This document shows positions 5,373 through 38,559 of a stretch of DNA of 45,438 nt, piece by piece. This DNA is from Fulvitalea axinellae (GTDB lineage Bacteria; Bacteroidota; Bacteroidia; Cytophagales; Cyclobacteriaceae). The stretch lies in NCBI RefSeq assembly GCF_036492835.1, contig NZ_AP025325.1, positions 1-45,438 of the forward strand. The letters are read 5' to 3'. Every line of letters begins with the position of its first letter. Positions within the stretch are counted from its first letter, which is position 1. Made by a program: the position numbers and the translations under genes. The notes below the pieces were generated by a model that was not told the DNA's origin, searched no databases, and saw only the letters and a program-made list of their open reading frames with translations.

Positions 5373-5450
5373 ACTACTTCCTGTTCTTATTCCTTAACAA
5401 TTACACTCTTTTTTAACAAAAATCAACATAAATCCGTGGTGTTTTTTGCG

Positions 5451-5493
5451 GGACCATCCGCATGGGGAGACGGGGCATGCCCGTGTCTCTACG
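5451..5493. repeat. Type B palindromic element, copy B1
   Basis: Leader GGACCATCCGC, then GGGAGACGGGGCATGCCC and GTGTCTCTACG. The arms GAGAC/GTCTC flank a GGGCATGCCC palindrome. It lies between divergent genes (lipoprotein leftward, 5662 rightward). Confidence 0.85.
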
Positions 5494-5507
5494 TTGATCA
5501 TTGGTTT

Positions 5508-11397: not shown

Positions 11398-11501
11398 TAA
11401 GTGATTTGTTGCTTTAAAATTATTGTTATCAGATTTTAAGTTCCTTATTTGTTATTGTTTCGCGAATTCTATAGGTTAAATATGGAATAAGGCTTTTGTT
11501 G

Positions 11502-12851: not shown

Positions 12852-13734
12852 GAAAGGACGCAAAACGAGACCGGTAAGGCAGGGCCTGAAGACGGCCAGC
12901 GTGGTGGGCGACGGCTTTACGGAGAAGATTTATTTTGACAAGCTCAAGGATTATGAGAAGCCCAAAGGGCTGAGCGTGGTGCCGGAGCTGCCGACGAAGG
13001 GTAAGGGCGGCTGGGACCGGGTGTTGTCGAAGGGCGAGGCGGAACTGTTTGACAAGGAGCGTGACTATGTTTACTGCGTCGTGGATTTGGATGTGGTGAG
13101 GAAGGACCGGGCTTGGGACAAATACCGCGGGCGCATTGCCGATATACGGGACCGCATAAGCCGGGCCAAGGCCGCGGGCGATACGGTGGGGGAGTTTCAT
13201 GTGTTGGAGTGTATGCCGTGTATCGAGCGCTGGTTTCTTTTGCATTACGAGTATTCGACCAAGGCGTTTGAGGACGGGGAGGCTTGCGAGAAGGAGCTGC
13301 GGAAGTATGTCAGGGATTATGAGAAGTCGCAGAGTTATCTGGAAAACGTGGGCGGTGGCGTGTACGCCAGGCTGAAGCCCGCACAACAGGATGGTTTCCG
13401 GAACGGTGACAGGCTGAAGGAGGCCGCCGTGGCCGAGGGCGGGGAGTCGTTTCCGGTATGTACGGTGCAGGAGGCTGTTCGGGGTATTTTGTTTTTCGGA
13501 TCGGCGGACCTGAGGGGGCTGCGGGTAAACGGCAGGCCGGCGGATTTGGAGCGTATGGAGTTTTGGAAGCAGTGGGAAGGCGAGGAGATCTCGGAGGACC
13601 GGATTTTGGCGCTGACGGAGAGTCCGGACGCCGGAACGTCGGTGAGTGTTTCGGGTGACGAGATCAGGGTCAGGGTTACGGCTATGGACGGGGTTACTGT
13701 CCGGGAGTGGTGCTTTGGGGTTCGGTGTTTTTAG
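12844..13734 (+). CDS. rloB: RloB/AbiLii-like TOPRIM-type partner protein, 296 aa
   Basis: Predicted effector of the RloAB pair. Motifs include GDGFTEKIYFDKL (the E of a TOPRIM-like first motif), YCVVDLDVV (DxD) and VLECMPCIERWFLLHYEYS (the family's C-x-x-x-W-x-L-L-H region). An N-terminal basic stretch MTRKGRKTRPVRQGLK is typical. The family usually runs about 200-230 residues; here ~85 residues follow the core (from about FFGSADLRGLRVNG to the end), a beta-rich extension not recognised. It overlaps rloA by 8 nt. Types B and A elements follow directly, probably at the transcript end. Confidence 0.85.
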   Translation: MTRKGRKTRPVRQGLKTASVVGDGFTEKIYFDKLKDYEKPKGLSVVPELPTKGKGGWDRVLSKGEAELFDKERDYVYCVVDLDVVRKDRAWDKYRGRIADIRDRISRAKAAGDTVGEFHVLECMPCIERWFLLHYEYSTKAFEDGEACEKELRKYVRDYEKSQSYLENVGGGVYARLKPAQQDGFRNGDRLKEAAVAEGGESFPVCTVQEAVRGILFFGSADLRGLRVNGRPADLERMEFWKQWEGEEISEDRILALTESPDAGTSVSVSGDEIRVRVTAMDGVTVREWCFGVRCF

Positions 13735-17294: not shown

Positions 17295-17557
17295 GTGGGG
17301 AAGATCGTAAATTTTTGGGAGGGTTGGAAGGGCCGGGCCCACGGAATGCCCGGTAAAAAGGGGTATATTCGCTTAGGGATGATAAAAGGGTAAGTCCGGT
17401 TGGGTATTAGGTACTGAATTGATGGGCTTGAGGCCTTCTTGGGATCGGGATAGGGTGACTATTCTTTAATTGTTCCTTAAGGTTATTTTATTCACCGCCC
17501 GGTGAGGTTTGATTTGATTTTTTGGGAACGGCAAGGGCTATTTTTGACTGTTTTTTT
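17295..17557. other. Divergent intergenic region between parA and the TPR gene
   Basis: It contains the palindromes GGGCCGGGCCC (about 17329-17339) and CCTTAAGG (about 17474-17481), either of which could be a ParB or ParA site. There is no tandem repeat array and no gene. It must hold promoters for both genes; no clear consensus was fixed. Confidence 0.4.
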
Positions 17558-19684
17558 ATGGAAGCTGTAGCGACAAAGGATCATCTGGAAGAGATTAAGG
17601 AGCTGTTTAGGGAAGGGAAGCTGGAAGAGGCGGTGGAGTATGCTGTTGAGATTCCGGTAAGGGACAAGGTCTATCCGAATATTATAAGTTGGGTATCCGA
17701 AGAGAATGAGCGGAAGCCTAGCGCTAAGGGGTATGTTATATTAGCGCTCTCGCTAAACAGAGCAGGGAAGAATGAGGAGTGTATTGAAGTAACGAACCGG
17801 GCGATAGCAATAAATCCAGGGGAGGCAAAGGCTTATCATTTTCGAGGCCATGCCAAATACGACCTCGGGGATAAAGAAGGAGCCATAAAAGATTACGACG
17901 AGGCCATACGGATTGACCCAGAATACATCAATGCGTACAACAACAGGGGCAATGCCAAATACGAGATCGGGGATAAGGAAGGCGCAATAAGGGACTACAG
18001 CGAGGCTATACGGATTGACTCAGAATACGCCTATGCGTACTCCAATAGGGGCTTAGCCAAATCCGGACTCGGGGACAATGAGAGTGCCATAAAGGACTTC
18101 GACGAGGCTATACGAATTGACCCGAAATTCGCCGGAGCGTACTACAACAGGGGCTTAGCTAAATCCGAACTCGGGGACAAAGAGGGTGCCATTAGGGACT
18201 ACAACGAAGCTATACGGATTGACCAGGAATTCGCTGGATCGTACTACAACAGGGGCAACGCCAAATCCGAACTCGGGGACAAAGAGGGCGCCATAAAGGA
18301 CTACTGCGAAGCTATACGCGTTGACAAGGAATACGCCAATGCGTATTTCAACAGGGGCATTGTCAAATACGGATTAGAGGACAAGGAGGGAGCTGTAAAG
18401 GATTATAACGAAGTTATACGCATTGACAAGAAATACGCCAAAGCGTACTTCAACAGGGGCATAGCCAAATACGACCTCGAGGACAAGGAGGGGGCAATAA
18501 GCGACTACAATGAGGTCCTACATATTATCCCGAATAACATTATCCCTTATACAAACAAAGCATCTGTTCAAAAAGACCTCGAGGATTATGAAGGAGCAAG
18601 ATCTACCTATGAGATAGCTTTGGAAAGGGCGGAAATGGATATTTCAAAAAAAGCCGAAATACAGAATGAGATTCGGAACCTGAGTGACTTTATTCAATTC
18701 CCTTCCCTATATGATATCTATACGCAAATAGATTCGGTGAGAGCAAGCCTTGAAATTAATCCTGAGGAAAGTGAGCTTACGCATTACACTGGTTTGGGGA
18801 CAGGCAAGATTATCATTAGTCAGGAAAGTCAAGACAAAGAGGGAAAGAGAATTCGGGGTTCAAAATTACGGATGTCGGAGGGGGCTTTTTTGAACGATAC
18901 TTCGGAGGGGCATAAGCTGTTCGATTTTATTGACAAGGATACGGAATACAGGTTGAGGGGCGAGGGTATGAAGGAGACGTTTCAGCCGAAGCCTTTTATC
19001 GGGAGTTTTGTGCCCGCCAGCAAGCGTGATGACCTTACGCTGTGGCGGATGTACGGAAAGGAACGGCATACGGAGGGTATGGGATGCGCGATTACACTGA
19101 GGCGGGAAGAACTTGAGAAGGCAATCAATGATGCTTTATGTCCGGAAGCGCCACAGGAAAAGCGGGAGGCCTTGGAGGCGAAGCTGATAGATCAGGAGCG
19201 GTTGAAGAAGGAAGTCGGTTTTTATTATGTGGCGTATCTGACTGAGGACGATGGGGTGAGGGTGCCGGGGAACAAGGGTGAGGAAGATAATCTGGAAAAG
19301 CTTTTGGCCGAACTGAAGGGTAGTATATCCGATATTCTGAAGGAGGAGTACGGGGACGAGGAACGCCTGAAGGCGTTGCGGCTGTCACTGGAAAGGAAGC
19401 TGTTGGAGATCGCTTATCTGTTTAAGACTGACCAGTATGTGTATGAGCATGAGATCAGGATGATTTTGACGGGAACGGGGCTAACGAAGGTGGTGGAGAA
19501 GAATGACGGGCAGGGGCCCGGGCGGGTGTATACGGAGCTGGTGAATATACGGCCGTATATTACGAATATCACACTGGGCCCGAAGGTGGACAGGCCGGAG
19601 GAATGGGCTTCGTTTTTTCATTATGATCTGGCTGAGGAGGGGATTAGCGTGGATATTCAGTATTCGGTGTTGCCGTTTAAGTAG
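17558..19684 (+). CDS. TPR protein with C-terminal DUF2971 domain, 708 aa
   Basis: The ATG at 17558 (MEAVATKDHLEEIKELFREG) is preferred to an in-frame TTG 12 codons earlier. A divergent TPR (~60-90) is followed by seven near-identical 34-residue TPRs (NRG-AK-LGDKEGAI-DY-EAIRID type) and a degenerate eighth. From about residue 410, the sequence matches DUF2971 in pattern: LTHYTGLGTGKIII, LRMSEGAFLNDTSEGHKLF, SKRDDLTLWRMYGKE, GFYYVAYLTEDD, YEHEIRMIL and NITLGPKVDRPEEW. DUF2971 proteins have unknown activity and recur in defence islands; TPRs would provide a binding scaffold. No signal peptide, so cytosolic. It stands between parA and the orphan-gene array. Confidence 0.85.
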   Translation: MEAVATKDHLEEIKELFREGKLEEAVEYAVEIPVRDKVYPNIISWVSEENERKPSAKGYVILALSLNRAGKNEECIEVTNRAIAINPGEAKAYHFRGHAKYDLGDKEGAIKDYDEAIRIDPEYINAYNNRGNAKYEIGDKEGAIRDYSEAIRIDSEYAYAYSNRGLAKSGLGDNESAIKDFDEAIRIDPKFAGAYYNRGLAKSELGDKEGAIRDYNEAIRIDQEFAGSYYNRGNAKSELGDKEGAIKDYCEAIRVDKEYANAYFNRGIVKYGLEDKEGAVKDYNEVIRIDKKYAKAYFNRGIAKYDLEDKEGAISDYNEVLHIIPNNIIPYTNKASVQKDLEDYEGARSTYEIALERAEMDISKKAEIQNEIRNLSDFIQFPSLYDIYTQIDSVRASLEINPEESELTHYTGLGTGKIIISQESQDKEGKRIRGSKLRMSEGAFLNDTSEGHKLFDFIDKDTEYRLRGEGMKETFQPKPFIGSFVPASKRDDLTLWRMYGKERHTEGMGCAITLRREELEKAINDALCPEAPQEKREALEAKLIDQERLKKEVGFYYVAYLTEDDGVRVPGNKGEEDNLEKLLAELKGSISDILKEEYGDEERLKALRLSLERKLLEIAYLFKTDQYVYEHEIRMILTGTGLTKVVEKNDGQGPGRVYTELVNIRPYITNITLGPKVDRPEEWASFFHYDLAEEGISVDIQYSVLPFK
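17831..18544 (+). repeat. Seven tandem 102-bp coding repeats (TPR units)
   Basis: Units begin every 102 bp (17831, 17933, 18035 and so on), each encoding one 34-residue TPR. Adjacent units are close in DNA as well as protein (for example the runs around GGGGACAAAGAGGG), which suggests recent unit amplification and possible copy-number variation. Confidence 0.9.
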
Positions 19685-19844
19685 GTTGGGGGTTGTTTGT
19701 TTCACCCGAAAGGATGGGATAAAGCTTAATTTTGACATTATGTGTTTATACACTTTTTGAGACAGTAACAATGAAAAGAATACTAGGTAAAATCGTTGCA
19801 ACTACATTCAGTACTTTACTAATACTAATCGTCATATTTATATC

Positions 19845-21107
19845 CAGGGCTTGTTCATAAAGGTCTATCTATTAAAATATTGGTGAATAGAATTTATATC
19901 TGCTACGATCTCCTCTCGCATTTCATTCATATTTTCACCAGCGTTCCTTTGGATCAAAATATTCATTACAGCAGTCAAAATACATGAAACACTTTGCTGT
20001 ATACCAGAGACAAGGCTCCTTAACCCGTCCTCTCCGAAGTTCGTATCCCTCATATTATTGTTTGCCTCTACGGACCAGTGTCCCCTTACGGCGTTAGGCA
20101 AGTTGTATTGATCAATAAGACCGGTATTTATATTGCTGACGTAGTATGATGTCTCGCTTGATGTTTTTCCTGTTTTAACGACTTTACGGGTACGGTCTAC
20201 CCGTATGAAGCAGCTCATCCCCGTATTCGACCAGCGACGCTCCAAGCATCCCGTTTCCACCGGGTAGGTCCGGTATATTCTTGTTTCGATCCTGCCATGG
20301 CCCTTTTCGACGGTCTTTTTATAATCCAAACATTCTGATCTCCGCTCCATGTCTCGAAGGTCTTCACGGAGTATTTTCTGGTTCCCTTTTATTTGTGAAA
20401 GGTAGACGCCCCGTTTTCCATGGATTCCCTCCAGTAACCCGGAATTATTGTGAAGGGCATCCATCGTATAAGCCGTTCCCGAAAGACCGGATTGAGTTTC
20501 AAAATATTCGTCGACAATACCCCGCTCGGAGTCTTTGGTACCCGAATAGTAGCCTACAACCTTGCTGGTTTTATCTTCTTGCGCGGTAACCAGAACCACG
20601 CTTTCCCCGCGTTTGTCCCCTGAGGATTTGTCGATACTCCCCCGGAGTTCTTTACCGTCAATCGAAAACCATTGAAGAGCTTGCGGATCTATAGTTTCGT
20701 TTGCGTTAAAAGTGGTTTCAGCAACCGCCTTAAGTCCCTGTATATCTGTATCCTTCAGGATTCTTCGGAGTTGAACACGGCTCACACAACACTTACTTTT
20801 ACCACCTGTGAAATCCCGCCAATAATCGTGATCCCTTTTCATTGAGCGGTGAATCTGTGAGAAATTGAGTTTTCCTCCGCTCCTGAATACGGCAAGCATA
20901 AAGCACAGTACGACAAAAGCCAGTTCGTGCTTCTTCCCCTTGGCGTTCCTGTGGTCTACAAGGCTTAGTTGTAACTGGAGGTAGTATTGATTAATTTCGT
21001 TTTTTTGGGAGCTTATCCATCAACCGCAAGTTTGTTTGTGGTAATTCAAAATTGCAATTCATGGTGGTAAGCTCCTATTTTCTCAGACGCTTTATGAACA
21101 GGCCCTG
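19845..21107 (-). mobile_element. ISAs1-family insertion sequence, 1263 bp
   Basis: Ends are CAGGGCTTGTTCATAAAG (left) and CAGGGCCTGTTCATAAAG (right, reverse strand), 17 of 18 identical. Both flanks carry TATTTATATC (19835-19844 and 21108-21117), a 10-bp target duplication in the ISAs1 range. One transposase ORF on the minus strand fills the element. It interrupts a coding sequence. Confidence 0.93.
19865..20899 (-). CDS. ISAs1-family transposase (N-terminus possibly frameshifted)
   Basis: DDE transposase with WFSIDGKELRGSI (first Asp), YTMDALHNNSG (second Asp) and HWSVEANNNMRDTNFGEDG (Glu), the typical H-repeat/ISAs1 signature. From the ATG at 20899 it is 344 aa, shorter than the usual ~370-380. 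The frame stays open ~37 codons further upstream and encodes family-like sequence (SLVDHRNAKGKKHELAFVVL), but has no ATG. The only upstream ATG (21020, MDKLPKK) is in another frame, separated by a run of seven A. A frameshift in that run has probably truncated or inactivated the enzyme. Confidence 0.85.
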   Translation of the reverse strand: MLAVFRSGGKLNFSQIHRSMKRDHDYWRDFTGGKSKCCVSRVQLRRILKDTDIQGLKAVAETTFNANETIDPQALQWFSIDGKELRGSIDKSSGDKRGESVVLVTAQEDKTSKVVGYYSGTKDSERGIVDEYFETQSGLSGTAYTMDALHNNSGLLEGIHGKRGVYLSQIKGNQKILREDLRDMERRSECLDYKKTVEKGHGRIETRIYRTYPVETGCLERRWSNTGMSCFIRVDRTRKVVKTGKTSSETSYYVSNINTGLIDQYNLPNAVRGHWSVEANNNMRDTNFGEDGLRSLVSGIQQSVSCILTAVMNILIQRNAGENMNEMREEIVADINSIHQYFNR

Positions 21108-21695
21108 TATTTATATCTTTATCAGGGATATATATATAGAATATATTACATCTGTTTTGCAAAAAGAAGGGCATGTTGCGTCTTTCAGAATTGTAAATTT
21201 TGAACCTGGCAGATACCACCGGACAAACTATACTTATCGATATTCTGTAAATGGGAAAAATTATGATGTATGGATTGAAGGGCGGTCTAGCTTAGACAAT
21301 AGTATTGGATATGTCGCATACTTGCCTGAATTTCCATCCTACAGTTGTTTAATAAGACGAACATCAAAAACAGATGTCCATGATCTTCAACATGGGGGGG
21401 AATTTAAGTCTTTGTTTGGTGAACTTCATTCTTCAGATTCACACGTTCCCTTTGACAGCATTCCTTATAGTTGGCTAATGAATAGATGGGATATTAAAGG
21501 CACAAGCGATGAGTGATAGATCAGTTCTACTTGACAATAATAAAATCAGCACATCAAGTTTGTAATAACCATGTTTTTTGCGTTTAGGTAATGTTCTTTT
21601 ATACCAGAGACTAAGTTTCACTGCATTTGTCCTAATTCATTATTCAGATAAATGAGGAAACTTCAGTTCGTCAAAAACTAAGAAGCCCCAAAGAA

Positions 21696-22178
21696 ATGGC
21701 TAAACAAAATACGGATAGAAAGAGGGAAGTCATCAAACTTATCTCAACAATAATTTTACTTCTATTAAGCGTAAAATCTTTTGCTCAGGAAGCAGCTACC
21801 TTTTTTGATTCTATATACATTACCGATATCCAGCAAACCTCAAAACTTGGCTTAATTAGAAATTACTCTAATAAAGATGATGGTATAAAATCTAAAGTAT
21901 GGTTTATAGGGCATTGGGAAGATTCTTATAATAATTCTCACAAGGTGTTCACTTCATTCAATATATATGGTAATAAAGGGGTAAGCCGAGTTATTCTTTG
22001 CGGGAACAAAAGAATCATATGTTATCATGCTGACATGCCTGATTACCTTCCCGTTAAAATTATGAATAATAAATTCCTCTTTAATAAAGGGCCAGCCTTT
22101 GAATTAGAATCAACAGAATATCCTTTTTGTACTCCATATGGATGTTTTGAGATGAGTGGCTCAGAATATTATAACTAG
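21696..22178 (+). CDS. Hypothetical secreted or periplasmic protein, 160 aa
   Basis: A basic leader MAKQNTDRKREVIK precedes the hydrophobic stretch LISTIILLLLSVKSFAQEA, a signal peptide with likely cleavage after SFA or SFAQ. The mature part is beta-rich: SKVWFIGHWEDSYNNSH, SRVILCGNKRIICYHAD and TPYGCFEMSGSEYYN, with several Cys. Family not recognised. First intact gene after the ISAs1 insertion, in the run of same-strand small genes; a periplasmic immunity role is possible but unproven. Confidence 0.6.
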   Translation: MAKQNTDRKREVIKLISTIILLLLSVKSFAQEAATFFDSIYITDIQQTSKLGLIRNYSNKDDGIKSKVWFIGHWEDSYNNSHKVFTSFNIYGNKGVSRVILCGNKRIICYHADMPDYLPVKIMNNKFLFNKGPAFELESTEYPFCTPYGCFEMSGSEYYN

Positions 22179-22326
22179 GTGAAAATCCCAGCTCACCCTT
22201 TTCCGGCTTCTTGTTGATTCTTTATAGGAGTAGATATTTTTTTGTACGCAAAAGGAGATTCCAGACAGATTCAAGAAGTGTTGGCAAGGGTAGTAAAGGC
22301 GATAACAACTTTTAATCATCAGGCAT

Positions 22327-22695
22327 ATGAAAAAAAGAAACCGACCTGCGATCATTGCATTTTTAACGATGGCGATCATTTTCCCATTTCTTGTTAGATA
22401 CACCGATAACAAAAGGATGGAGGAGATACGGCGGTATAAATACATGAAATACGATAGGGGTTATTCTTTCACGGTTAGGGATGTTGAGTATGACCGAGGG
22501 TATACTAAGACAATCACAAGCGAAGACGATAGTATCTTGGTTATCTGCACTCCCTTGCGAAACCCCTTTGAGGAGGCCGATTCGGTGACAAAACAGGAGG
22601 GTTCATATAATCTAACTGTTCATCGAGGAACTCAAACATTGAATTATACTCTTCGCAACGAAGATAAAGTGGCGAAAGAGGCTTTGATCGAATAA
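22327..22695 (+). CDS. Small membrane-anchored protein, 122 aa (paralogue of 23494)
   Basis: MKKRNRPAIIAFLTMAIIFP is an uncleaved membrane anchor. It is followed by TDNKRMEEIRRYKYMKYDRG and a small beta domain with VEYDRGYTKTITSEDDSILVICTPLRNPF and SYNLTVHRG. The 23494 product shares the same order of motifs (K-x-YMxY, S-x-DSIL-x-x-CT, DSxxKxxxSYxLTV), so the two arose by an old duplication around the intervening 22733 gene. Function unknown. Confidence 0.7.
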   Translation: MKKRNRPAIIAFLTMAIIFPFLVRYTDNKRMEEIRRYKYMKYDRGYSFTVRDVEYDRGYTKTITSEDDSILVICTPLRNPFEEADSVTKQEGSYNLTVHRGTQTLNYTLRNEDKVAKEALIE

Positions 22696-22732
22696 TAGGA
22701 TTGAGTGTGGTCAATAATTATATATTCGAGTT

Positions 22733-23329
22733 ATGGAGGCCTTAAGGAGCATTATTGATTTACCTAATATTGATGGGTTAAGAAGAAATATGCAGGGGAT
22801 GGCTTTGCTTGACGCTGTGATAATGCCTGAATGGGAGCATCGGTATTTTTCCTTCGACGGTAATTGGTCTAAAGGCGAGATGATGGGGTCTGTAAGGGAT
22901 GGCCTTGGCGCTGAGTGCTTTATTCATTTTACGAAGTTTGGTGCGGTGGGTAAGGTTTTGTCGGGTCCGTCTTTGCCTAATGTCAGTGATATTCCAAAAA
23001 GGATTCCCGAGGGGTTTTCCGGTTTTGTCGATGAGCCCGCGTTTAATGTTTCCGAGGCTTCGTTTTTTTTCTGGAGAAGATACTCGGATGATTATTGGTC
23101 GGTTTATCCGGATAATCTAGATGAATACGATTGGTTGGGTACTCTTAAAAACGGCTGTCTTTCTTACCGGTTATGGGCTGAGTCTTATTATGAAAGATCT
23201 TTTCCGGCTAGGGTAGTGGAAAGTGTCTATAGCGGTCTGAGGGTTACCGAAGGGGATGTAGTCGAGTTGAATCCCGCAATACGCTTAGGTGATCTTCAGG
23301 ATGATATTTGTGGGATATTGGGGGGGTAG
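22733..23329 (+). CDS. Hypothetical protein of an immunity-like family, 198 aa
   Basis: Cytosolic. MPEWEHRYFSFDGNWSKGEM, MGSVRDGLGAECFIHFTKFG, FVDEPAFNVSEASFFFWRR and YRLWAESYYERSFP match, from memory, a recurrent ~200-residue family (RYYSFNSxW / MRNGxGD / EPAF...TFCIWRR / WAExYYER) seen beside polymorphic toxins and of unknown biochemical role. GC content is higher than in its two flanking paralogue genes, so it was probably inserted between them. The start at 22733 is the first in-frame ATG. Confidence 0.7.
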   Translation: MEALRSIIDLPNIDGLRRNMQGMALLDAVIMPEWEHRYFSFDGNWSKGEMMGSVRDGLGAECFIHFTKFGAVGKVLSGPSLPNVSDIPKRIPEGFSGFVDEPAFNVSEASFFFWRRYSDDYWSVYPDNLDEYDWLGTLKNGCLSYRLWAESYYERSFPARVVESVYSGLRVTEGDVVELNPAIRLGDLQDDICGILGG

Positions 23330-23493
23330 GTGTCTTGTGGGAAGATAGGGCATATCCGTGTCTCAAAACGAAAACGGGAACTATCAGTGCTGGTGCTTCA
23401 ATAGGAGTTGGTGTTGCCCAAACATTTTCATAGACCACTGATAAAGGAACGACAAAAGTCCTTAAAAAGTAACTATTTTCAACAACCCAACAT

Positions 23494-23871
23494 ATGAAGG
23501 TCAAAAAGAATATAATTAGCACACTGTTAGCCTTTTTGTCAATAGTCATAAGTTTACCAATCCTCATTCACTTTTCAGACAAAAAGAGAATAAAGAATTT
23601 AAAAAAATATCGATATATGGAATATGAAAATCAATATTCTATAAGGGTTAAAACTGTTTCGTTTGACCACGGATGGATTAAAGTCATCACTTCAAAAAAT
23701 GATAGTATATTGATGGCGTGTACAGTCTCTGGGAATCCTTTACAACAATTTGATTCTATACATAAACCTCAAGACTCATATGATCTAACCGTATTGAGAG
23801 ATGAGAGAAAGATTCGACTTACCCTCGAAGACCCAGCTAAATTGGCTCGTAACGTTGTTGGAAATCAGTAA
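23494..23871 (+). CDS. Small membrane-anchored protein, 125 aa (paralogue of 22327)
   Basis: Membrane anchor IISTLLAFLSIVISLPILIH, then DKKRIKNLKKYRYMEYENQ, SFDHGWIKVITSKNDSILMAC and QDSYDLTVLRDERKIRLTLE. Same length and motif order as the 22327 product, at roughly 35-40% identity by eye. Strongly AT-rich. Function unknown. A degenerate type B element (about 23336-23366) precedes it. Confidence 0.7.
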   Translation: MKVKKNIISTLLAFLSIVISLPILIHFSDKKRIKNLKKYRYMEYENQYSIRVKTVSFDHGWIKVITSKNDSILMACTVSGNPLQQFDSIHKPQDSYDLTVLRDERKIRLTLEDPAKLARNVVGNQ

Positions 23872-23900
23872 TTCCTCTGCTCGACTAAGTTTGTCGTCGG

Positions 23901-23950
23901 ACGTTTCCAGTTGTTTAGCCGGGAACTTACGCTGAGCGCATTGGCCTTTT
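23901..23950 (+). repeat. Cassette-boundary repeat, partial copy W
   Basis: ACGTTTCCAG through TTTAGCCGGGAACTTACGC and GCATTGGCCTTTTA parallels 29742-29790 (copy Y: CGTTTCCGG, CTAGCCGGGAACTTATCCC, GCATTGGCCTTTTA). Only the left half of the repeat is present here. Confidence 0.8.
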
Positions 23951-24000
23951 ATCTGTATAGGAAAGAGGAGCTGATTTTTTAGGGAGATTATCTTGTATTA

Positions 24001-24040
24001 CCATCCTAGTGGGGAGACAGGGCATGCCCGTGTCTGTACG
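24001..24040. repeat. Type B palindromic element, copy B5
   Basis: CCATCCTAGTG leader, GGGAGACAGGGCATGCCC and GTGTCTGTACG. It lies in a gene-free gap between cassettes, ~60 bp before the next start. Confidence 0.88.
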
Positions 24041-24098
24041 TGAGCCTAATTTGGGTGCTAGGTAGTAGTCATACTTTTAAGTAAACCTATACTTGGGA

Positions 24099-24356
24099 AT
24101 GAGATCAAAAATAAAATTTATACTAATCTTTATGGTCAGTTCTCTGGCGATCTACCTTGCAATAATGACGTATTTAGCGTTCAAATTTGCTTTAACGATA
24201 CCTGAAGCGGTGAAGGGTATTATGAATACCAAAGAAAGCTGGAGTAAAAGATCAAACAGTAACACAAACACATTTCCCTCAGATACTCTTTTACTCGATT
24301 CTTTAAACAGTATCAAGTATAATCGCAAGGAGAATGATGGGGATAGTATCCAATAG
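24099..24356 (+). CDS. Small membrane-anchored protein, 85 aa
   Basis: The ATG at 24099 (MRSKIKFILIFMVSSLAIYL) is preferred to a TTG two codons earlier. One N-terminal helix is followed by a short polar tail rich in Ser, Asn and Lys (KESWSKRSNSNTNTF). The tail has no clear fold. Family not recognised. It may be the remnant of a longer cassette gene. Confidence 0.45.
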   Translation: MRSKIKFILIFMVSSLAIYLAIMTYLAFKFALTIPEAVKGIMNTKESWSKRSNSNTNTFPSDTLLLDSLNSIKYNRKENDGDSIQ

Positions 24357-24463
24357 GTCGAGGGAGCATCTTTTAACGTTTTAAAGGGTGTATTGGATTC
24401 CCCAGTAAAGTTATAAAGTCGCATTTCTTTCGGCCAACCTTTTTAAGAAAAACACTTATACGT

Positions 24464-24817
24464 ATGCCTAATGTAGAAGATATTCAGAGTATATTTTTTA
24501 ATAAATTCAATATTGAAAAATTGAAAAAGTTAGCTACTGAAGCGTTAAAAGACCATGCATATGATTATGATTTTTTACAGGAGAATGGATTTAACGATGT
24601 ATCCAAATACAAGGGTGACACAAGGAAATTAGAGATAATATATAGAGGAATTACAATTCATTTTCGTGGAGATCTTATCCAAGGAAAACCTTTTTTCAGA
24701 ATCTTATATTCGATGATTGATCCGGCTACAAAATCGGAGTATTTCAGGTACGACCTAGAGTTTAATAATGAAGGAGATATTCTTGACGACTATTTTTACA
24801 TACCTAGTCTTGACTAG
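24464..24817 (+). CDS. Hypothetical cytosolic protein, 117 aa
   Basis: MPNVEDIQSIFFNKFNIEKL forms an amphipathic helix, then YRGITIHFRGDLIQGKPFFR and KSEYFRYDLEFNNEGDILDD, an alpha/beta layout of immunity-like size. No signal or membrane segment. Acidic C-terminus (DDYFYIPSLD). Family not recognised; an immunity role is an inference from context. Confidence 0.6.
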   Translation: MPNVEDIQSIFFNKFNIEKLKKLATEALKDHAYDYDFLQENGFNDVSKYKGDTRKLEIIYRGITIHFRGDLIQGKPFFRILYSMIDPATKSEYFRYDLEFNNEGDILDDYFYIPSLD

Positions 24818-24946
24818 GGCATTCGCCTAAGTCCAACTGAACCTAAGTGTTGGCTGTTTACGTCCCCTATCTGAAACCTAAGGCTAAGTGTATAGGCCTT
24901 TTAATCGTTAAAAAATGGGCAAAACGGTGTTTAACGAAATATTACT

Positions 24947-25471
24947 ATGAATACAAAAGAGTTTATAACGGCATTAATGGATCAATGCCCTGATATTGTA
25001 GGGGATATAGACTCCGAGAGGTATCAAATGTTGGAAATGGAGACGGAGATGTGGCGGGGAGAATTCCATGTTCCTTTTAAGAATAAGGACACTGATCCTA
25101 TACTTAATCTTGTCGCGAATATTAATCAGCGGTCTCCAATAATAGAACACTTGTCATTTTCGGATGATTACTTTTGCGTACTAGACCATTATCTGTTCGG
25201 GGGAATCATGGAAGACAGTTTAGGGATAGAGATCTCTACTGGAAAGATCAATCTACTTGAAATAAGTGATGGGCGCATTCTTTATTCTTGCGCAAAAGAC
25301 AGTGCCAGCTTCTTGGACGCCATTCTTCAATATACGGAGTATATATCACGACTAACACAAAGGGATATAGTTGATGAAGGTACTGAGCGCAAAAGCTATA
25401 TTAATAAGGCGACTGAGTTAGCGGGTGGGGACAGCTACTTACCTTTCTTTTCGTATTTGTTTTCTCTATAG
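24947..25471 (+). CDS. Hypothetical protein, possibly SUKH-like immunity, 174 aa
   Basis: Cytosolic. The central part LGIEISTGKINLLEISDGRI followed by SCAKDSASFLDAILQYTEYI resembles the tail of SUKH-type (SMI1/KNR4-related) immunity domains: an x-G-x-E-x-x-TG strand, then a helix that starts with a Ser and F-L. The N-terminal half (EMWRGEFHVPFKNKD) does not show the usual SUKH opening, so the call is weak. It is followed at once by a strong rho-independent terminator. Confidence 0.6.
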   Translation: MNTKEFITALMDQCPDIVGDIDSERYQMLEMETEMWRGEFHVPFKNKDTDPILNLVANINQRSPIIEHLSFSDDYFCVLDHYLFGGIMEDSLGIEISTGKINLLEISDGRILYSCAKDSASFLDAILQYTEYISRLTQRDIVDEGTERKSYINKATELAGGDSYLPFFSYLFSL

Positions 25472-25477
25472 AAAACA

Positions 25478-25506
25478 CTCTCTTTAGCGGAGAGAGGCAT
25501 TTTTTT
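25478..25506 (+). terminator. Rho-independent terminator
   Basis: Stem CTCTCT (25478-25483) and AGAGAG (25491-25496) around TTTAGCGG, then GCA and a run of seven T. It begins 7 nt after the stop of the 24947 gene and ends 2 nt before the earliest start of the next ORF. It isolates the two cassettes transcriptionally. Confidence 0.85.
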
Positions 25507-25526
25507 GTATGTTGAAAATTAGAAAT

Positions 25527-26183
25527 ATGAGTAAACTGAAAATCTTTTTTTTATCGGTTATAATCGTTTTTGTGGGCGGATGCCTATATGTATTGTCTAT
25601 TTTTGACTTTTTTAGACCCAAATATTTAAATAATAGATTCAAAACGGATGGGTTTCAAACAAGAATGTTGAAATACGTTCCGACGCAAAGAAATTGTCTA
25701 TTCCTGAAAAATCGAGATAACAGCGACGAATCAAGTTTTTTGTTGGAACTAAGGCCAACAGTCTCTTTTCATAGCGACTCAACTAAAACCATAAGGATAG
25801 GATATATACGGCCAGGATCTGATGGGGCTTCGGATAAAATTTCTTATGTCAAAATCCTTGGAAAGGAACGTAATACTGAAGAATATGTCGATATCACAAA
25901 AGATTTTTATGAACAGGAATTCCATTATACCTTAGATAGTACTCTAGAGCATTCAGGAACCAGTGTAGTTTCAAAGTATGGTTATGTTTCATTACCTAGT
26001 ATTGACTGGTATATAAATAAGTATAACAATAGAAGATTAATAGGAAATGTTACTCCACAAAGAGAAATATTATTGATATACACAGGTTCTTTGGAGATAA
26101 TGGATGTTAAAGTTGAGGTATTTAAAGAGCATTCTAATAAGGGCGATTCACTTATTTCCTCTTCTCCGGTTATGAGGCCCTGA
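25527..26183 (+). CDS. Hypothetical membrane-anchored protein or lipoprotein, 218 aa
   Basis: The ATG at 25527 gives MSKLKIFFLSVIIVFVGGCL, a hydrophobic N-terminus whose VGGC could also be a lipobox. An ATG 6 codons upstream (25509) would lie right behind the terminator. The exported part is beta-rich: ESSFLLELRPTVSFHSD, TIRIGYIRPGSDGASDK and REILLIYTGSLEIMDVKVEV. AT-rich. Family not recognised. Confidence 0.65.
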   Translation: MSKLKIFFLSVIIVFVGGCLYVLSIFDFFRPKYLNNRFKTDGFQTRMLKYVPTQRNCLFLKNRDNSDESSFLLELRPTVSFHSDSTKTIRIGYIRPGSDGASDKISYVKILGKERNTEEYVDITKDFYEQEFHYTLDSTLEHSGTSVVSKYGYVSLPSIDWYINKYNNRRLIGNVTPQREILLIYTGSLEIMDVKVEVFKEHSNKGDSLISSSPVMRP

Positions 26184-26196
26184 TAATCTATAACGA

Positions 26197-26604
26197 ATGA
26201 CAAATCTTGAGATGGAAAAGGGGTTGCCCCTTGATATGAAAGGGAACTACTGTCAGTTTGAGGACCGGGGTGAGGTTAGGTTTATTGAGATCTATACTTT
26301 AGAGTATGACATAAAGGAAGTTGAGTTTCTCAATAAGATTGGGGTGTATGAGGAGAGTAACACTTACTCTTTTATCCGTCTGTGTAAGGGGGATATTCCG
26401 AAAGGCACGAGATACATATACAAGCTTATGACGTATCTGAATGACAGTAAATCGGAAGACCTATGGACGTTTAATGAGGCGATTCATGAATATGAGGAAG
26501 TGGGGTTTACGACATCCGATGAGCTGTTTCTGTATTGCGAAGATAGGTGGGGTATCGGTAAACAGGATTTTACAGGATATAATGAGACGGACCTTCCGTA
26601 TTAG
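26197..26604 (+). CDS. Hypothetical acidic cytosolic protein, 135 aa
   Basis: Starts 13 nt after the previous stop at ATG 26197 (MTNLEMEKGLPLDMKGNYCQ). Contains GEVRFIEIYTLEYDIKEVEF, PKGTRYIYKLMTYLND and a C-terminal LFLYCEDRWGIGKQDF. Net acidic, no signal, immunity-like size. Family not recognised. A degenerate palindrome (GGGCAGG...GATGCCC) follows the stop. Confidence 0.6.
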   Translation: MTNLEMEKGLPLDMKGNYCQFEDRGEVRFIEIYTLEYDIKEVEFLNKIGVYEESNTYSFIRLCKGDIPKGTRYIYKLMTYLNDSKSEDLWTFNEAIHEYEEVGFTTSDELFLYCEDRWGIGKQDFTGYNETDLPY

Positions 26605-26693
26605 AGGGACGGGCAGGTGGCGGGATGCCCATATCCTCGCATTCCGTTTCTGAGGGTGACAATGGGTCTGGACGTACTTAACAGCGGAAAGGT

Positions 26694-27041
26694 ATGTATA
26701 AGTTTTATTTGGCCATATTAACGTTTATGTACGGGATTAGCTTGTTTTACCTTAGCGTGAATATCGACGCTTTTCCATGGTATGCTCATAGGCCTGACGG
26801 GTGGTACTTGTTAATCGAGTTTACTATTCCGAATACCTTTATTGGCTTGATCTTGTCTTCGCTGTTGATTCTTAGGAAGAAGATCCTCTTAGGTGGGCTA
26901 ATACTGGTTTATACCTGTTTAACTTTTTACACAGCGCTAACCAGAAGCAATTCGGAGCCTACGCTGTTTGTCCTCAACCTTGTGTTGGTGGCTTGTTTGT
27001 TTGTTTACACGCAAATCATTTACTCTAGAGGGAAAGGATAA
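26694..27041 (+). CDS. Four-helix integral membrane protein, 115 aa
   Basis: Hydrophobic segments at ~2-22 (FYLAILTFMYGISLFYLSV), ~42-60 (LIEFTIPNTFIGLILSSLLI), ~66-84 (LLGGLILVYTCLTFYTAL) and ~91-110 (LFVLNLVLVACLFVYTQIIY) predict four membrane passes. Compact four-helix proteins with this plan can be immunity proteins for membrane-active toxins, but no family was recognised. Confidence 0.65.
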   Translation: MYKFYLAILTFMYGISLFYLSVNIDAFPWYAHRPDGWYLLIEFTIPNTFIGLILSSLLILRKKILLGGLILVYTCLTFYTALTRSNSEPTLFVLNLVLVACLFVYTQIIYSRGKG

Positions 27042-27096
27042 ACTAGCGTTGCACTTATATGACTTTTTGTTTTTTATGGAGAGGGTAGGGGGCTGA

Positions 27097-27387
27097 ACCG
27101 CTGAGCCCATTGATAATGAAACAATAGAGAAAAATCAATTTATTACAGATGCTTTATCAGCATTACAAGATTTAATAAAGGACGGAACAATAGAAAGCGT
27201 CTATTATGAAAGGGATGGAACTAGATCAACTGCAAGAGATGAAGATAATAAGTTATATGACCGAAAGTTCACTAATGTTTATAAGATGAAGTTTAAGGAA
27301 ATAAAGTATGATAATAATGGTTTTTCTTTTGAGGGGAAATTATTATTGGAATATAAGGAACAAGATCGTTTAGATGACAATGATTAA
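27097..27387 (+). pseudogene. Start-less C-terminal fragment (candidate displaced toxin tip)
   Basis: The frame is open from just after a TGA at 27094-27096 to TAA at 27385-27387 and encodes 96 residues with a typical coding look (NQFITDALSALQDLIKDGTI, TNVYKMKFKEIKYDNNGFSF), ending EYKEQDRLDDND. There is no start codon until a Met ~65 residues in. The sequence GGGGGCTGAACC just before it recurs at 29140-29150. This is what a toxin tip cut off from its long N-terminal carrier would look like. The next ORF overlaps by 8 nt, like a toxin-immunity pair. Confidence 0.5.
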
Positions 27388-27514
27388 GGGCAAACACATA
27401 TTAATCATATTACTATCATTAATAGTAATATTTATAATTGCGTTATATTACTATATAGCAATTGGGCTCGGATCTACGTTACTTAAAATACTTAAGGGTA
27501 TTATAAATTACTAA
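27380..27514 (+). CDS. Single-helix membrane peptide, 44 aa
   Basis: ATG 27380 overlaps the end of the preceding fragment by 8 nt. It encodes MIKGKHILIILLSLIVIFII followed by ALYYYIAIGLG and a basic end (KILKGIIN). Almost entirely a membrane helix. The overlap suggests coupling to the preceding reading frame and hence the cognate small immunity or accessory protein. It is short, so it could also be chance. Confidence 0.45.
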   Translation: MIKGKHILIILLSLIVIFIIALYYYIAIGLGSTLLKILKGIINY

Positions 27515-27533
27515 TGCGGATCAAGGATAAGCA

Positions 27534-27680
27534 ATGATAAAACAATTCGTTTTTAATTTAAATAACCATACTTTAGATTTGTACAATCTAAAGCACCCCG
27601 CTCCTACCGGTTTACCTGTCGCCCGTTTCTGGCTAGAAAATCTGAAACTCACGCTGATCGAATTGGCCATTTGGCCGTAA
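27534..27680 (+). pseudogene. 48-codon ORF running into a boundary repeat
   Basis: AAGGA lies 6-7 nt before ATG 27534. It encodes MIKQFVFNLNNHTLDLYNLK, then enters boundary repeat copy X and stops at 27678-27680. The perfect inverted repeat CTTTAGATT/AATCTAAAG (27571-27593) lies within it. Probably the 5' end of a gene whose remainder was replaced by the repeat, or non-coding. Confidence 0.3.
27571..27593. repeat. Perfect 9-bp-stem palindrome
   Basis: CTTTAGATT, loop TGTAC, AATCTAAAG. No T-tract follows, so it is not a standard terminator; it could be a protein-binding site or a transcript end signal. Confidence 0.6.
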
Positions 27681-27784
27681 CGCAAGGGCTGTATCAATAA
27701 AAAATGGACGAAAAATCCAGTGTGTATGACATACCGTATTTTTTGCGTTTAGCGTTTTTTTTCAACAAGGACTATCCCCGGAAT
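27624..27784 (+). repeat. Cassette-boundary repeat, copy X
   Basis: CGTTTCTGGCTAG, GCTGATCGAATTGGCC, CGTAACGCAAGGGCTGTATC, AATAAAAAATGGA, a decayed hairpin AAAAATCC...GTATTTTTT, TTGCGTTT and TTCAACAAGGACTATCCCCG. The same order occurs at 29742-30025. A 47-codon ORF (27704-27847) runs through it but is not preserved in the other copies. Confidence 0.8.
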
Positions 27785-27867
27785 ACCGAAGGACTCATAT
27801 GCGCAAATGAATACATAGCACATAGAGAAGAGGAAGAAAGGAACTAGGCCTTCTGTTGTGGTCTAGC

Positions 27868-27912
27868 CACATAGCCGAAAATCGATTGTCCGATTAATAG
27901 GGGCCTGGACCA
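27868..27912 (+). repeat. Second boundary motif, copy 1
   Basis: CCACATAGCCGAAAATCGAT, TGTCCGATTAATAGGGG and CCTGGACCA. It is nearly identical to 29107-29151 and directly precedes a new cassette fragment, as there. Confidence 0.8.
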
Positions 27913-27931
27913 ATTTCAATCTTAAATCCTT

Positions 27932-28287
27932 ATGGAACGCAATATTCACAAAAGTGGAATGGTTGAATTCCCTCATACAGGCACCGAAGTTACTGGTTCA
28001 GGTACGGTGGGACAATATTCAATAAACAATACTGTGCTGTATGAATACTATAATAGAAATGATGTCACAACTGGAGTAGAAGACCATATCAAGGATACTA
28101 TACTAACAGTCAGTTCAATGCTTTAAGAAATAAACATTTTATAAATTCGATGTCAAGAAATGGCTTTTCAAGGGTGTTTGTAGCCCCATCGATAGTCAAT
28201 GATGTATCAACAACAGGTTCAACAATAAATATCATTGGAGATAATAAAGGGATACACGATAACCACTTACATTTCGATACAGACTAA
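27932..28287 (+). pseudogene. Frameshifted cassette gene
   Basis: From ATG 27932 the frame encodes MERNIHKSGMVEFPHTGTEV, then GQYSINNTVLYEYYNRNDVT, and stops at 28124-28126. A second frame, open across the overlap, continues with GYYTNSQFNALRNKHFINSM, SRNGFSRVFVAPSIVND and ends GDNKGIHDNHLHFDTD at 28285-28287. Both halves read like protein, so a single frameshift near 28080-28100 best explains them. The His-rich end (HDNHLHFD) could be catalytic in a toxin, but the family is not recognised. Confidence 0.5.
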
Positions 28288-28298
28288 CTAAATTTATT

Positions 28299-28868
28299 AT
28301 GCTAAAGAGATGGTCACTTTTATTTTTGTTTCAAGTAATAAGTCTTCCTGTTTTTTCTCAATTCCAATTAGGGTTACCTCTTTATGATGACTCTGATTCA
28401 TTTCACTTCTATTGTAAATATGGGGATATTAAAGTGAATGATAATGCGGTATTACTAGGTGACAAGGGCATATTTGAGGAGGTTAAGATCACCAGAAAAA
28501 GTAGATACGATTCATTATTACTCCACAAGAAAAATTTTCCAAGAAGGCTACAAATAAAACCTATTGGAACATTGATTACAACAAAAAGTAAAGAAAATTT
28601 CAGATTACTATTGAATTACGGAAAAAACACCTTAGATAAGGCATTATTTCGAAAACTAGAGAAGGCTGATCTTCATTTGACGAATTCAGATACAAAACCT
28701 ACAGATATAATTGATTTCTATGGCTTTGTATATACACTTTCTTTCACAAAGAATCCTGAAACTATAATTGTATACGATATAAACACTTTAACTAAAAAAG
28801 GTAAATCTAGTAGAACGATACTTTTGATGACTGGAAATACTATTCGAACTAGATTAAACTTATTTTAA
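28299..28868 (+). CDS. Hypothetical secreted or periplasmic protein, 189 aa
   Basis: The signal peptide MLKRWSLLFLFQVISLPVFS ends just before QFQLG. It starts 11 nt after the preceding pseudogene, as an immunity gene follows its toxin. The mature part is KYGDIKVNDNAVLLGDKGIF, RRLQIKPIGTLITTKSKENF and DIIDFYGFVYTLSFTKNPET. Strongly AT-rich. Family not recognised. Periplasmic location would suit immunity to a cell-envelope toxin (inference). Confidence 0.65.
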   Translation: MLKRWSLLFLFQVISLPVFSQFQLGLPLYDDSDSFHFYCKYGDIKVNDNAVLLGDKGIFEEVKITRKSRYDSLLLHKKNFPRRLQIKPIGTLITTKSKENFRLLLNYGKNTLDKALFRKLEKADLHLTNSDTKPTDIIDFYGFVYTLSFTKNPETIIVYDINTLTKKGKSSRTILLMTGNTIRTRLNLF

Positions 28869-29044
28869 AAACAACGAATGAAATACTTAACTAATATTTT
28901 ATTGAATCTCTTCCGATCGGCTAAGGTGTGCCGTGAAGCGACCGCCGGCATCCGCAAGGATGAAACAAGGTCGCATGCTGTATTCGAGATGGTGGCAGGC
29001 CTGCCAGAGTCGCCGTACAGGCGGAGGCTCCAAACCGCTCTATT

Positions 29045-29151
29045 TTGGCCGTAACGCAGGGGCTGTATCAAAAAAATGGATGGAAAATCCGGTGTGTTTG
29101 CATGCCCACATAGCCGAAAATCGATTGTCCGATTAATAGGGGGCTGAACCA
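29045..29151 (+). repeat. Boundary repeat, copy Z, joined to the second boundary motif
   Basis: TTGGCCGTAACGCAGGGGCT, GTATCAAAAAAATGGATGGA, AAATCCGGTGTG, then CCACATAGCCGAAAATCGAT and TGTCCGATTAATAGGGGG. Here the two boundary motifs that are ~90 bp apart at copy X are fused. GC-rich sequence at 28920-29040 before it resembles degenerate A/B elements (GGTGGCAGGCCTGCC). Confidence 0.75.
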
Positions 29152-29227
29152 AAAAGTAGTTGAACCTGGGTATAGCCATGAATTTGAAAAGGCACTAGGG
29201 AACACTGAGTTTATATGGAAAGATTGA
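29152..29227 (+). pseudogene. Short start-less coding fragment after the boundary motif
   Basis: In the frame that runs out of the boundary motif, the codons give KVVEPGYSHEFEKALGNTEF then IWKD and a TGA. This protein-like C-terminal end of ~25 residues lies just before the 29232 gene. It is consistent with the last residues of a lost toxin whose immunity gene follows. It is too short to be certain. Confidence 0.3.
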
Positions 29228-29231
29228 GGTT

Positions 29232-29735
29232 ATGATTCACAATATTGACAAGGACTTTGATATTATTCCTGAAAAAGGAATCGGTAATATAAGACTAGGG
29301 ACAAGCATTTATTATTTTCAAGAACTTTATGAAAAACAAAAAAAGGATCAATACATAGATATAAAACCTACTATAAACCCTAATTTAATTTATTTGACAG
29401 ATGTTGAATATTGTGACTTTGTGACATTTTCTTTTAATTGTAATGGTATTTTATCTATAATAACTCTGAAAAATGGGTATGAAGGGAAATTATGGGGCAC
29501 TATAACGTTGAATTCTCAAGTCAAAGACATATTTAACACTATTGATGTTAAAGAGTTTGAAATAGAAGATGGGTTTCTAGTTATAAATAACTATACAAAA
29601 CTTTATTTCTTTCTGGGTGAAGATGTTCCTGATTTCTCCGAATATCATGAAACTAAAGACTTAAAAATAAAAGAAATATTAATAATTGATAAAGAATTAC
29701 TATCTCACCGCCCCCCCGCTAACACAAGTATATAG
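29232..29735 (+). CDS. Hypothetical immunity-like cytosolic protein, 167 aa
   Basis: MIHNIDKDFDIIPEKGIGNI followed by LGTSIYYFQEL recalls the opening (I-x-P-x-x-GxGxIxLG) of several small beta-sheet immunity proteins. Then YCDFVTFSFNCNGILSIITL and YTKLYFFLGEDVPDFSEYHE. No signal peptide. The last ~10 residues (SHRPPANTSI) are encoded at the edge of boundary copy Y, so the natural C-terminus may have been replaced. AT-rich. Specific family not recognised. Confidence 0.65.
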   Translation: MIHNIDKDFDIIPEKGIGNIRLGTSIYYFQELYEKQKKDQYIDIKPTINPNLIYLTDVEYCDFVTFSFNCNGILSIITLKNGYEGKLWGTITLNSQVKDIFNTIDVKEFEIEDGFLVINNYTKLYFFLGEDVPDFSEYHETKDLKIKEILIIDKELLSHRPPANTSI

Positions 29736-29741
29736 GTCGGC

Positions 29742-30025
29742 CGTTTCCGGCTTCCTAGCCGGGAACTTATCCCGATCGCATTGGCCTTTTAGACGTAACG
29801 CAAGAACTGTATCAATAAAAAATAAATGGAAAATCCGATGTGCTTGGCATAGCGGATTTTTTGCGTTTTGGGGTATCCTAGGGTGATGCCCCAGGTTGAC
29901 GAATGTAAGACCTTCGGCCTATGTAATTTGTGGCGCTATCATCAGTTTGGGGCAGTTTTTTGACTTTTTAGCGTGAGGATGGTTTCAGTCCAATTTTTAT
30001 TGTTTCAACAAAGACTATCCCCGGA
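29742..30025 (+). repeat. Cassette-boundary repeat, copy Y (most complete)
   Basis: CGTTTCCGGCTTCCTAGCC, GGGAACTTATCCCGATCGCA, TTGGCCTTTTAGACGTAACG, CAAGAACTGTATCAATAAAA, a hairpin AAAATCCG...CGGATTTTTTGCG (29830-29863), then a ~140-bp insertion absent from copy X, and TTTCAACAAAGACTATCCCC. It marks the right end of the orphan-gene array. Confidence 0.8.
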
Positions 30026-30140
30026 AAGAACAGAAAAAAAGGGAGAAGAAAGGAGCCTTTACATTCGGCCGGGGGCCGGGGCTGTTTACTCACTTATGAT
30101 TATTTTGTAAATGTGTTCGTGAGCTCACTATCGCTCGGTT

Positions 30141-30253
30141 GGAGCGACGGAGGAGTGGATAATAGCTCCGGTTTCCGGACGTTCCCGTGGCGTTTTCTTC
30201 TCTTTTTCGTTTGTTTTTCGGCGGGGAGGGTTTCGCTACGAGTTTTTTTAGGG
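30141..30253. repeat. 113-bp direct repeat D, copy 1 (partner 38386-38498)
   Basis: Nearly identical (about 96%, a handful of mismatches by eye) to 38386-38498 in the same orientation, from GGAGCGACGGAGGAG to TTTTTTTAGGG. It contains GGAGC...GCTCC and CGTTTCCGG-type inverted arms. A type B element follows 37 bp later. The two copies bracket the whole SusCD operon. Confidence 0.93.
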
Positions 30254-30290
30254 GTGTTTCTATTCTTGTTTTTCCGATCTGTTTCTGTTT

Positions 30291-30330
30291 GACCATTCGC
30301 GTGTGAGACAGGGCATGCCCGTGTCTGTCC
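30291..30330. repeat. Type B palindromic element, copy B6
   Basis: GACCATTCGCGTG leader, GAGACAGGGCATGCCCGTGT and CTGTCC. It is just beyond the end of the SusCD operon and next to repeat D copy 1. Confidence 0.85.
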
Positions 30331-30426
30331 CTAAAAAATAATGAACGGATCAGGAAGAAAAAATCCGGAAAAATCCCTTTTTCCGGATGTAAAACCTTCT
30401 GATTAGATATGTAAAAAGGAGATTTT

Positions 30427-38498: not shown

Positions 38499-38518
38499 AC
38501 GTTAAAATCATTGTGTTA

Positions 38519-38559
38519 CCATCCTCGTGGAGAGACAGGGCATGCCCGTGTCTGTACGT
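38519..38559. repeat. Type B palindromic element, copy B7
   Basis: CCATCCTCGTG leader, GAGAGACAGGGCATGCCC and GTGTCTGTACG. It stands between repeat D copy 2 and the GC-rich non-coding block. Confidence 0.88.

Follow-up and report, generated by a model that had tools for sequence, protein, structure and literature searches.

A plasmid-borne row of immunity-like genes in Fulvitalea axinellae, probably assembled from Rhs-type cassettes by toxin erosion

What is a row of small, co-oriented, immunity-like genes doing on a plasmid that carries no full toxin gene? This question is raised by contig NZ_AP025325.1 of Fulvitalea axinellae (C12 below; "the window" denotes this whole contig, 45,438 bases), part of a genome of 7,394,227 bases in 15 contigs. 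We took C12 to be a plasmid since a Pfam scan found two Rep3 initiators together with a ParA-like gene and a ParB-like gene. The array, which spans roughly 10 kb from position 19771, is in our judgement probably a heterogeneous polyimmunity locus, built from Rhs-type toxin/immunity cassettes by erosion of their toxin parts. Its genes are probably kept for defence.

The array and its toxin-linked relatives

Between 21696 and 29735 the + strand holds 12 intact open reading frames (ORFs) of 85-224 residues, plus a 46-residue ORF at 27374. A 13th array gene, the first in order, is split by an insertion sequence (IS), and three broken fragments each lie directly 5' of a small ORF. In 21120-29735 the + strand carried 11 ATG-started ORFs of at least 100 residues, whereas 300 dinucleotide shuffles of that interval averaged 0.08 and never exceeded 1; the - strand carried 2, compared to a mean of 0.17 and a maximum of 2. 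The array of + strand small genes described in an initial annotation was thus borne out. Its statement that everything lies on the + strand applies to the small genes and not to the IS transposase, which runs on the - strand within 19845-21107. The features are listed here, and genes are named below by their start positions.

19771..19844, + strand: first array gene, 5' part with an N-terminal hydrophobic stretch (ATG at 19771, left end of the IS at 19845)
19845..21107, - strand: IS element with a DDE transposase (19865-20899) and a 10-bp target duplication; splits the first array gene
21108..21516, + strand: first array gene, 3' part, weakly DUF3592-like (PF12158, E 0.025, below cut-off)
21696..22178, + strand: immunity-like protein, signal/anchor helix, 160 residues; no family above cut-off
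22327..22695, + strand: membrane-anchored immunity-like protein, paralogue of 23494; relative in an Aureibacter array
22733..23329, + strand: predicted cytosolic acidic immunity protein, 198 residues; relatives 3' of polymorphic toxin type 10 and Rhs/PT-HINT genes
23494..23871, + strand: membrane-anchored immunity-like protein, paralogue of 22327
24099..24356, + strand: small single-helix protein, 85 residues
24464..24817, + strand: predicted cytosolic acidic immunity protein, 117 residues; distant relative directly 3' of a full-length Rhs toxin
24947..25471, + strand: cytosolic acidic immunity-like protein, 174 residues
25509..26183, + strand: anchored immunity-like protein, 224 residues
26197..26604, + strand: cytosolic acidic immunity-like protein, 135 residues
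26694..27041, + strand: four-helix membrane protein, immunity-like, 115 residues
27097..27387, + strand: start-less toxin-tail-like fragment, 96 codons
27374..27514, + strand: 46-residue single-helix ORF that overlaps the stop of the fragment; questionable as a gene
27926..28287, + strand: frameshifted toxin-tail-like fragment, two overlapping frames
28299..28868, + strand: immunity-like protein, signal-like N-terminus, 189 residues
29153..29227, + strand: toxin-tail-like remnant, 24 codons
29232..29735, + strand: cytosolic acidic immunity-like protein, 167 residues

Four of the 12 intact genes, in three families (22733; 24464; 22327/23494), have relatives linked to polymorphic toxins. For 22733 we found relatives in 19 plasmid records. 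The best plasmid relative lies on a Leptospira noguchii plasmid (39% identity over 193 residues), where a gene annotated as "polymorphic toxin type 10" ends 5 nucleotides (nt) before its start; in Streptomyces sp. NBC_00841 a relative starts 108 nt after a gene whose product has an Rhs core and a PT-HINT domain. Pfam has models for both Imm27 and Imm53, and 22733 gave no Pfam match at E 1 and no NCBIfam match. These two immunity families go with Ntox10 in the part of the listing of Zhang et al. available to us (PMC3482391). Gene 22733 is a pointer to an immunity protein family without a Pfam or NCBIfam match that is polymorphic-toxin-linked in two other phyla.

The relative of 24464, in a genome that we call G179 (E 8.4e-5, 27% over 113 residues; the only match besides the own genome among 345 genomes), begins 2 nt past the stop codon of a 2442-residue toxin whose domains include SpvB, TcdB-middle and Rhs core; further Rhs core stubs were seen downstream by eye. 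The paralogous pair 22327/23494 has a relative on Aureibacter tunicatorum plasmid pAT1, found also in genome G010, apparently the same genome (39 genomes searched, one match besides the own). Its neighbours there are further small genes in a row, and a severed Rhs tip of 279 residues lies 0.9 kb downstream of it. On Aureibacter plasmid pAT2 (NZ_AP025307.1, 157609-179064; locus L041, 2610-24065) we observed a tandem duplicate of a unit that comprises an Rhs tip with its downstream gene, a helix-turn-helix regulator, a CHC2 zinc-finger protein and a pair of tyrosine recombinases. The first of the two units follows a full-length Rhs gene, which looks as though the tip cassette were carried by an integrating element.

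The gene products are of several kinds, in agreement with the mix of types in the initial annotation. Five have an isoelectric point of 4.4-4.9 and no hydrophobic helix (22733, 24464, 24947, 26197, 29232), five have a single helix near the N-terminus (21696, 22327, 23494, 24099, 25509), and 26694 has four helices. The signal-like start of 28299 was recognised by eye and falls below the hydropathy cut-off. GC content across the array is 33-41%, and neighbouring intact genes from 21696 to 27041 are spaced by 13-227 nt, with wider gaps where fragments or repeats lie. Since 22327 and 23494 are paralogues (38-39% identity), the array genes are not all unrelated, contrary to what had first been stated.

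Presumed toxin remnants and the sister contigs

The three fragments are start-less or frameshifted and each precedes a small ORF, much as the initial annotation described. From fragment stop to the next ATG the distance is -14 nt for 27097-27387, where that ATG is only the one of the 46-residue ORF, +11 nt for 27926-28287 and +4 nt for 29153-29227. In eight comparison toxin/immunity pairs, selected by hand from the host and other genomes, the same distance ranges from -71 to 108 nt. The ending of 27926-28287 is reminiscent of what we take to be zinc-peptidase motifs. A search of C12 for the Rhs core gave no match at E 0.001 or 0.01, hence no Rhs core end motif 5' of the fragments. The absence of a carrier gene from the plasmid, already claimed in the initial annotation, was confirmed; elsewhere in this genome, contig C8 carries three Rhs genes of full length.

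Contigs C6 and C8-C13 appear to be plasmids, judged by size and context. The same Rhs core query that found the C8 genes led to a broken tip on C10 and, on C11, to a stub of 20 codons (E 6.8e-4). On C10 the order is a DprA-like gene, an Rhs core end, a tip with an internal stop and a small gene cut by the same IS as in the window. On C11 a DprA-like gene is followed by ~20 codons of Rhs core and an ORF of ~345 residues with a lipoprotein-like start, and on C13 by a single small ORF; no trace of Rhs was seen there. C9 bears several groups of immunity-like ORFs, including a pentapeptide-repeat protein. The window itself has no DprA-like gene. Immunity-like genes are ended by a common 3' flank on C9, C10, C11, C12 and C13, and only those on C9 and C12 look extended. 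Loci with related flanks in one genome range from full toxins through a broken tip and a core stub to immunity-like genes that stand bare, and the possible steps can therefore be compared directly. We infer that C8, C10, C11 and C13 represent stages of one process, and position, spacing and the sister contigs fit a reading of the three window fragments as toxin tails. Apart from matches to repeats or IS edges and from a 29-residue stub of 22733 on C6, we found no credible match to an array protein on C8-C11, C13, parts of C6 and C14, or C15 as examined. The C15 sequence as examined is exactly 10,000 bases long and may be cut.

Two repeats and the common flank lie at these positions:

23886..23957, + strand: partial repeat A, hairpin part absent
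27618..27783, + strand: repeat A, conserved 3' flank, imperfect hairpin
27867..27913, + strand: repeat B, directly 5' of the second fragment
29044..29106, + strand: partial repeat A
29106..29152, + strand: repeat B, directly 5' of the third fragment; 96% identity to 27867-27913
29736..29868, + strand: repeat A, right after the stop of the last gene, clear hairpin
30003..30328, + strand: common 3' flank, 69-80% identity with C9, C10, C11 and C13

Repeat A occurs at four places in the array, two of them partial, and the 47-nt repeat B at two. In the window, repeat A lies 0, 14 and 103 nt after genes, and the ORF at 27704-27847 is mostly repeat sequence. On C8, two of the Rhs genes have a downstream gene that is followed by repeat A, at distances of 33 and 38 nt; for the third Rhs gene the repeat comes 183 nt past the stop codon, with no ORF of at least 80 residues in between. 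Local folding predicted a hairpin with A-rich and T-rich arms, which we judged clear in 8 of the 11 copies; it looks like a terminator, and a simple terminator scan did not list it.

We also noted short palindromic interspersed repeats of the GAGACAGGGCATGCCCGTGTCTC type at 5446-5494, 23993-24041, 30284-30332 and 38511-38559 of the window, with many more on C9-C13, and a second palindromic type, AGGT..GAACCTGCC, elsewhere on the window.

The following course would account for these arrangements. Toxin/immunity cassettes would enter a recombination slot, the toxin part would then be truncated or deleted, and the downstream immunity gene would stay open. Repeated rounds, perhaps aided by homology in the 3' flank, could yield a row of immunity genes directed against different toxins and suited to different cell compartments; homology may drive the assembly, and the shared flanks could permit exchange between plasmids. 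The simplest explanation is the scheme of Zhang et al. for toxin tips (PMC3482391, as far as available to us), in which an incoming tip/immunity cassette displaces the previous tip, whose immunity gene is left as a remnant. Here the immunity genes would persist on plasmids without a carrier, the tips seemingly being lost in addition to displacement. The proteins would most likely be made to survive toxins delivered by rivals. We infer this protection from what orphan immunity genes are known to do, according to the parts of PMC12247911 and PMC3150448 at hand, and the array genes would be expressed and protective.

A wider version of this reading, which we offer tentatively and regard as rather less than an even bet, makes the plasmid family a distributed immunity store. 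Antidotes would pile up over co-resident plasmids, apart from the replicon with the full Rhs genes, and a fixed slot, between the DprA-like gene and the common 3' flank on C10, C11 and C13, would take up Rhs cassettes and lose their toxin part.

Weighing the alternatives

Several observations weigh against a polyimmunity locus derived from Rhs-type cassettes. The immunity array proposed in the initial annotation gained support for four intact genes through toxin-adjacent or toxin-array relatives; the remaining eight of the 12 have no known relative and may be immunity genes as well. Searches of 149 genomes of the family and 355 of the phylum found no credible relative for 29232; nor did searches of 355 phylum genomes each for 24947 and 26197, or of 193 genomes for 28299 (all totals include the own genome). 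The plasmid search gave no credible match for 24947, 25509, 26197, 26694, 28299 or 21112-21513, and 21696 and 24099 have no relative in the family libraries and fetched loci, the sole places searched. Among the array genes scanned, no Pfam or NCBIfam family rose above its cut-off, and PADLOC matched none of the seven array genes scanned.

The toxin links themselves vary. Seven of the nine inspected relatives of 22733, out of 19, have no annotated polymorphic toxin directly 5'. The link of 24464, to one genome at E 8.4e-5, is weak; 24464 had no relatives in plasmids, and its predicted fold gave no telling structural match. On pAT1 one gene separates the relative of 22327/23494 from the Rhs tip, and no toxin stands immediately before that relative. 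The fragments, which the initial annotation called severed toxin tips, fit that description by position, spacing and sister contigs; none matched a toxin C-terminus by sequence, so the similarity that had been predicted failed to appear. None had a credible match in the Rhs loci examined, pieces of 27097-27387 and 27926-28287 had no Pfam match (29153-29227 is too short for a family scan), and a piece of 27926-28287 had no match in 195 other genomes of the phylum. Repeat A is not confined to Rhs loci, because C6 has further copies away from Rhs, some of them close to an eCIS-core gene. That gene (locus L011, 5804-7960) has an eCIS core domain and is possibly a contractile-injection effector.

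The mobility and transferability proposed in the initial annotation likewise found no backing. Among 29 distinct non-array ORFs of C12 scanned with Pfam, two were transposases and none was a relaxase, a transfer gene or a site-specific recombinase; smaller ORFs and other replicons lay outside the scan.

The strongest competitor, which we nevertheless think unlikely, is a passive graveyard, in which displaced cassettes decay, selection is absent and expression is lost. All five presumed toxin remnants (three in the window, one each on C10 and C11) are broken, and array genes on C9, C10 and C12 have been cut by the same IS. The transposase of this IS matches PF01609 at E 0.0027, below its cut-off, and the genome holds at least 13 further copies (among 40 of 82 candidates scored); on C9 and C10 it interrupts small genes again with 10-bp duplications. 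Neither of the two promoter consensuses tried was in excess, in scans that cover Bacteroidota poorly. Neutral decay, however, should strike toxin remnants and small genes alike, whereas the 12 window ORFs of 85-224 residues are intact while every presumed remnant is broken. The initial annotation had left the choice between a bank and a graveyard open. With 5 of 5 remnants broken and 12 of 13 window small genes of at least 85 residues intact, a retained bank fits better, and the comparison stops short of proof.

It is improbable that these are unrelated small plasmid genes, such as lipoproteins and membrane proteins, that merely share a strand. The silence of Pfam, NCBIfam and PADLOC and the eight genes without a known relative would suit that explanation, but in other bacteria relatives of three families are linked with polymorphic toxins, and the sister contigs carry genes of this kind that end in the common flank. 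Least probable of all is an array of the rAID type (PMC12247911), which shares two of the three features named in the part of that source at hand, co-oriented short genes of ~100-300 codons and intergenic repeats, but would call for a tyrosine recombinase, absent from the 29 scanned ORFs, and sits poorly with the copies of repeat A after Rhs genes and on C6.

The replicon and known immunity loci

The host of the plasmid is probably a marine bacterium. For one Rep gene of C12 the best-ranked plasmid matches were from Aureibacter and Persicobacter, of the same family as the host. The smallest plasmids of this family (13.7-25.9 kb) bear rRNA operons, according to the part of PMC10645730 available, which is why C15, at 10,000 bases, is suspected of being cut. 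Elsewhere on the window, an AAA_21 ATPase and RloB-like pair at 11496-13734 scores as an AbiLi/AbiLii abortive-infection system. Directly 5' of the array, 17522-19684 encodes a 720-residue TPR protein with a further C-terminal region and no PADLOC match. In a limited search of the literature on Rhs or orphan immunity with plasmids or the host's genera, judged by titles and abstract openings, we found no treatment of such arrays in the host family.

For the systems compared below, our statements extend to the portions of each source available to us. Heterogeneous polyimmunity loci, as defined by Zhang et al. 2012 (PMC3482391), comprise at least four genes in tandem on one strand whose immunity proteins are structurally unrelated, uninterrupted by toxin genes or cassettes and with small gaps; there is usually one per organism, and ~13% of organisms have more. 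The window resembles them in its tandem, co-oriented, structurally unrelated immunity or immunity-like genes without full toxin genes, and in the presumed role of a reserve against the toxins of rivals; such loci are known from Bacteroidetes. Unlike them, it keeps three broken presumed toxin remnants between its genes, its intact neighbours up to 27041 stand 13-227 nt apart, and genes of its type are spread over five contigs of one genome, with no recombinase seen beside the array.

Start-less fragments followed by an immunity or immunity-like gene, and interruptions by IS elements, are shared with the orphan cdiA-CT/cdiI and rhs modules of Poole et al. 2011 (PMC3150448). Those modules lie downstream of the main toxin cluster, whereas the full Rhs genes here are on another contig, and the window fragments differ in being short or broken. 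With rAID (PMC12247911) the window has in common a row of short, co-oriented orphan immunity or immunity-like genes and intergenic repeats, where rAID has conserved sequence motifs. It differs in that the toxins linked to its genes are Rhs-type or otherwise polymorphic rather than type VI secretion effectors of the gut, and in that rAID has a predicted tyrosine recombinase beside the array, of which the 29 scanned ORFs of the window gave none. For rAID, the origin of orphan immunity rows is called unclear and is actively researched. The kind of locus found here is already known, and its remnants hint at how such a cluster was built.

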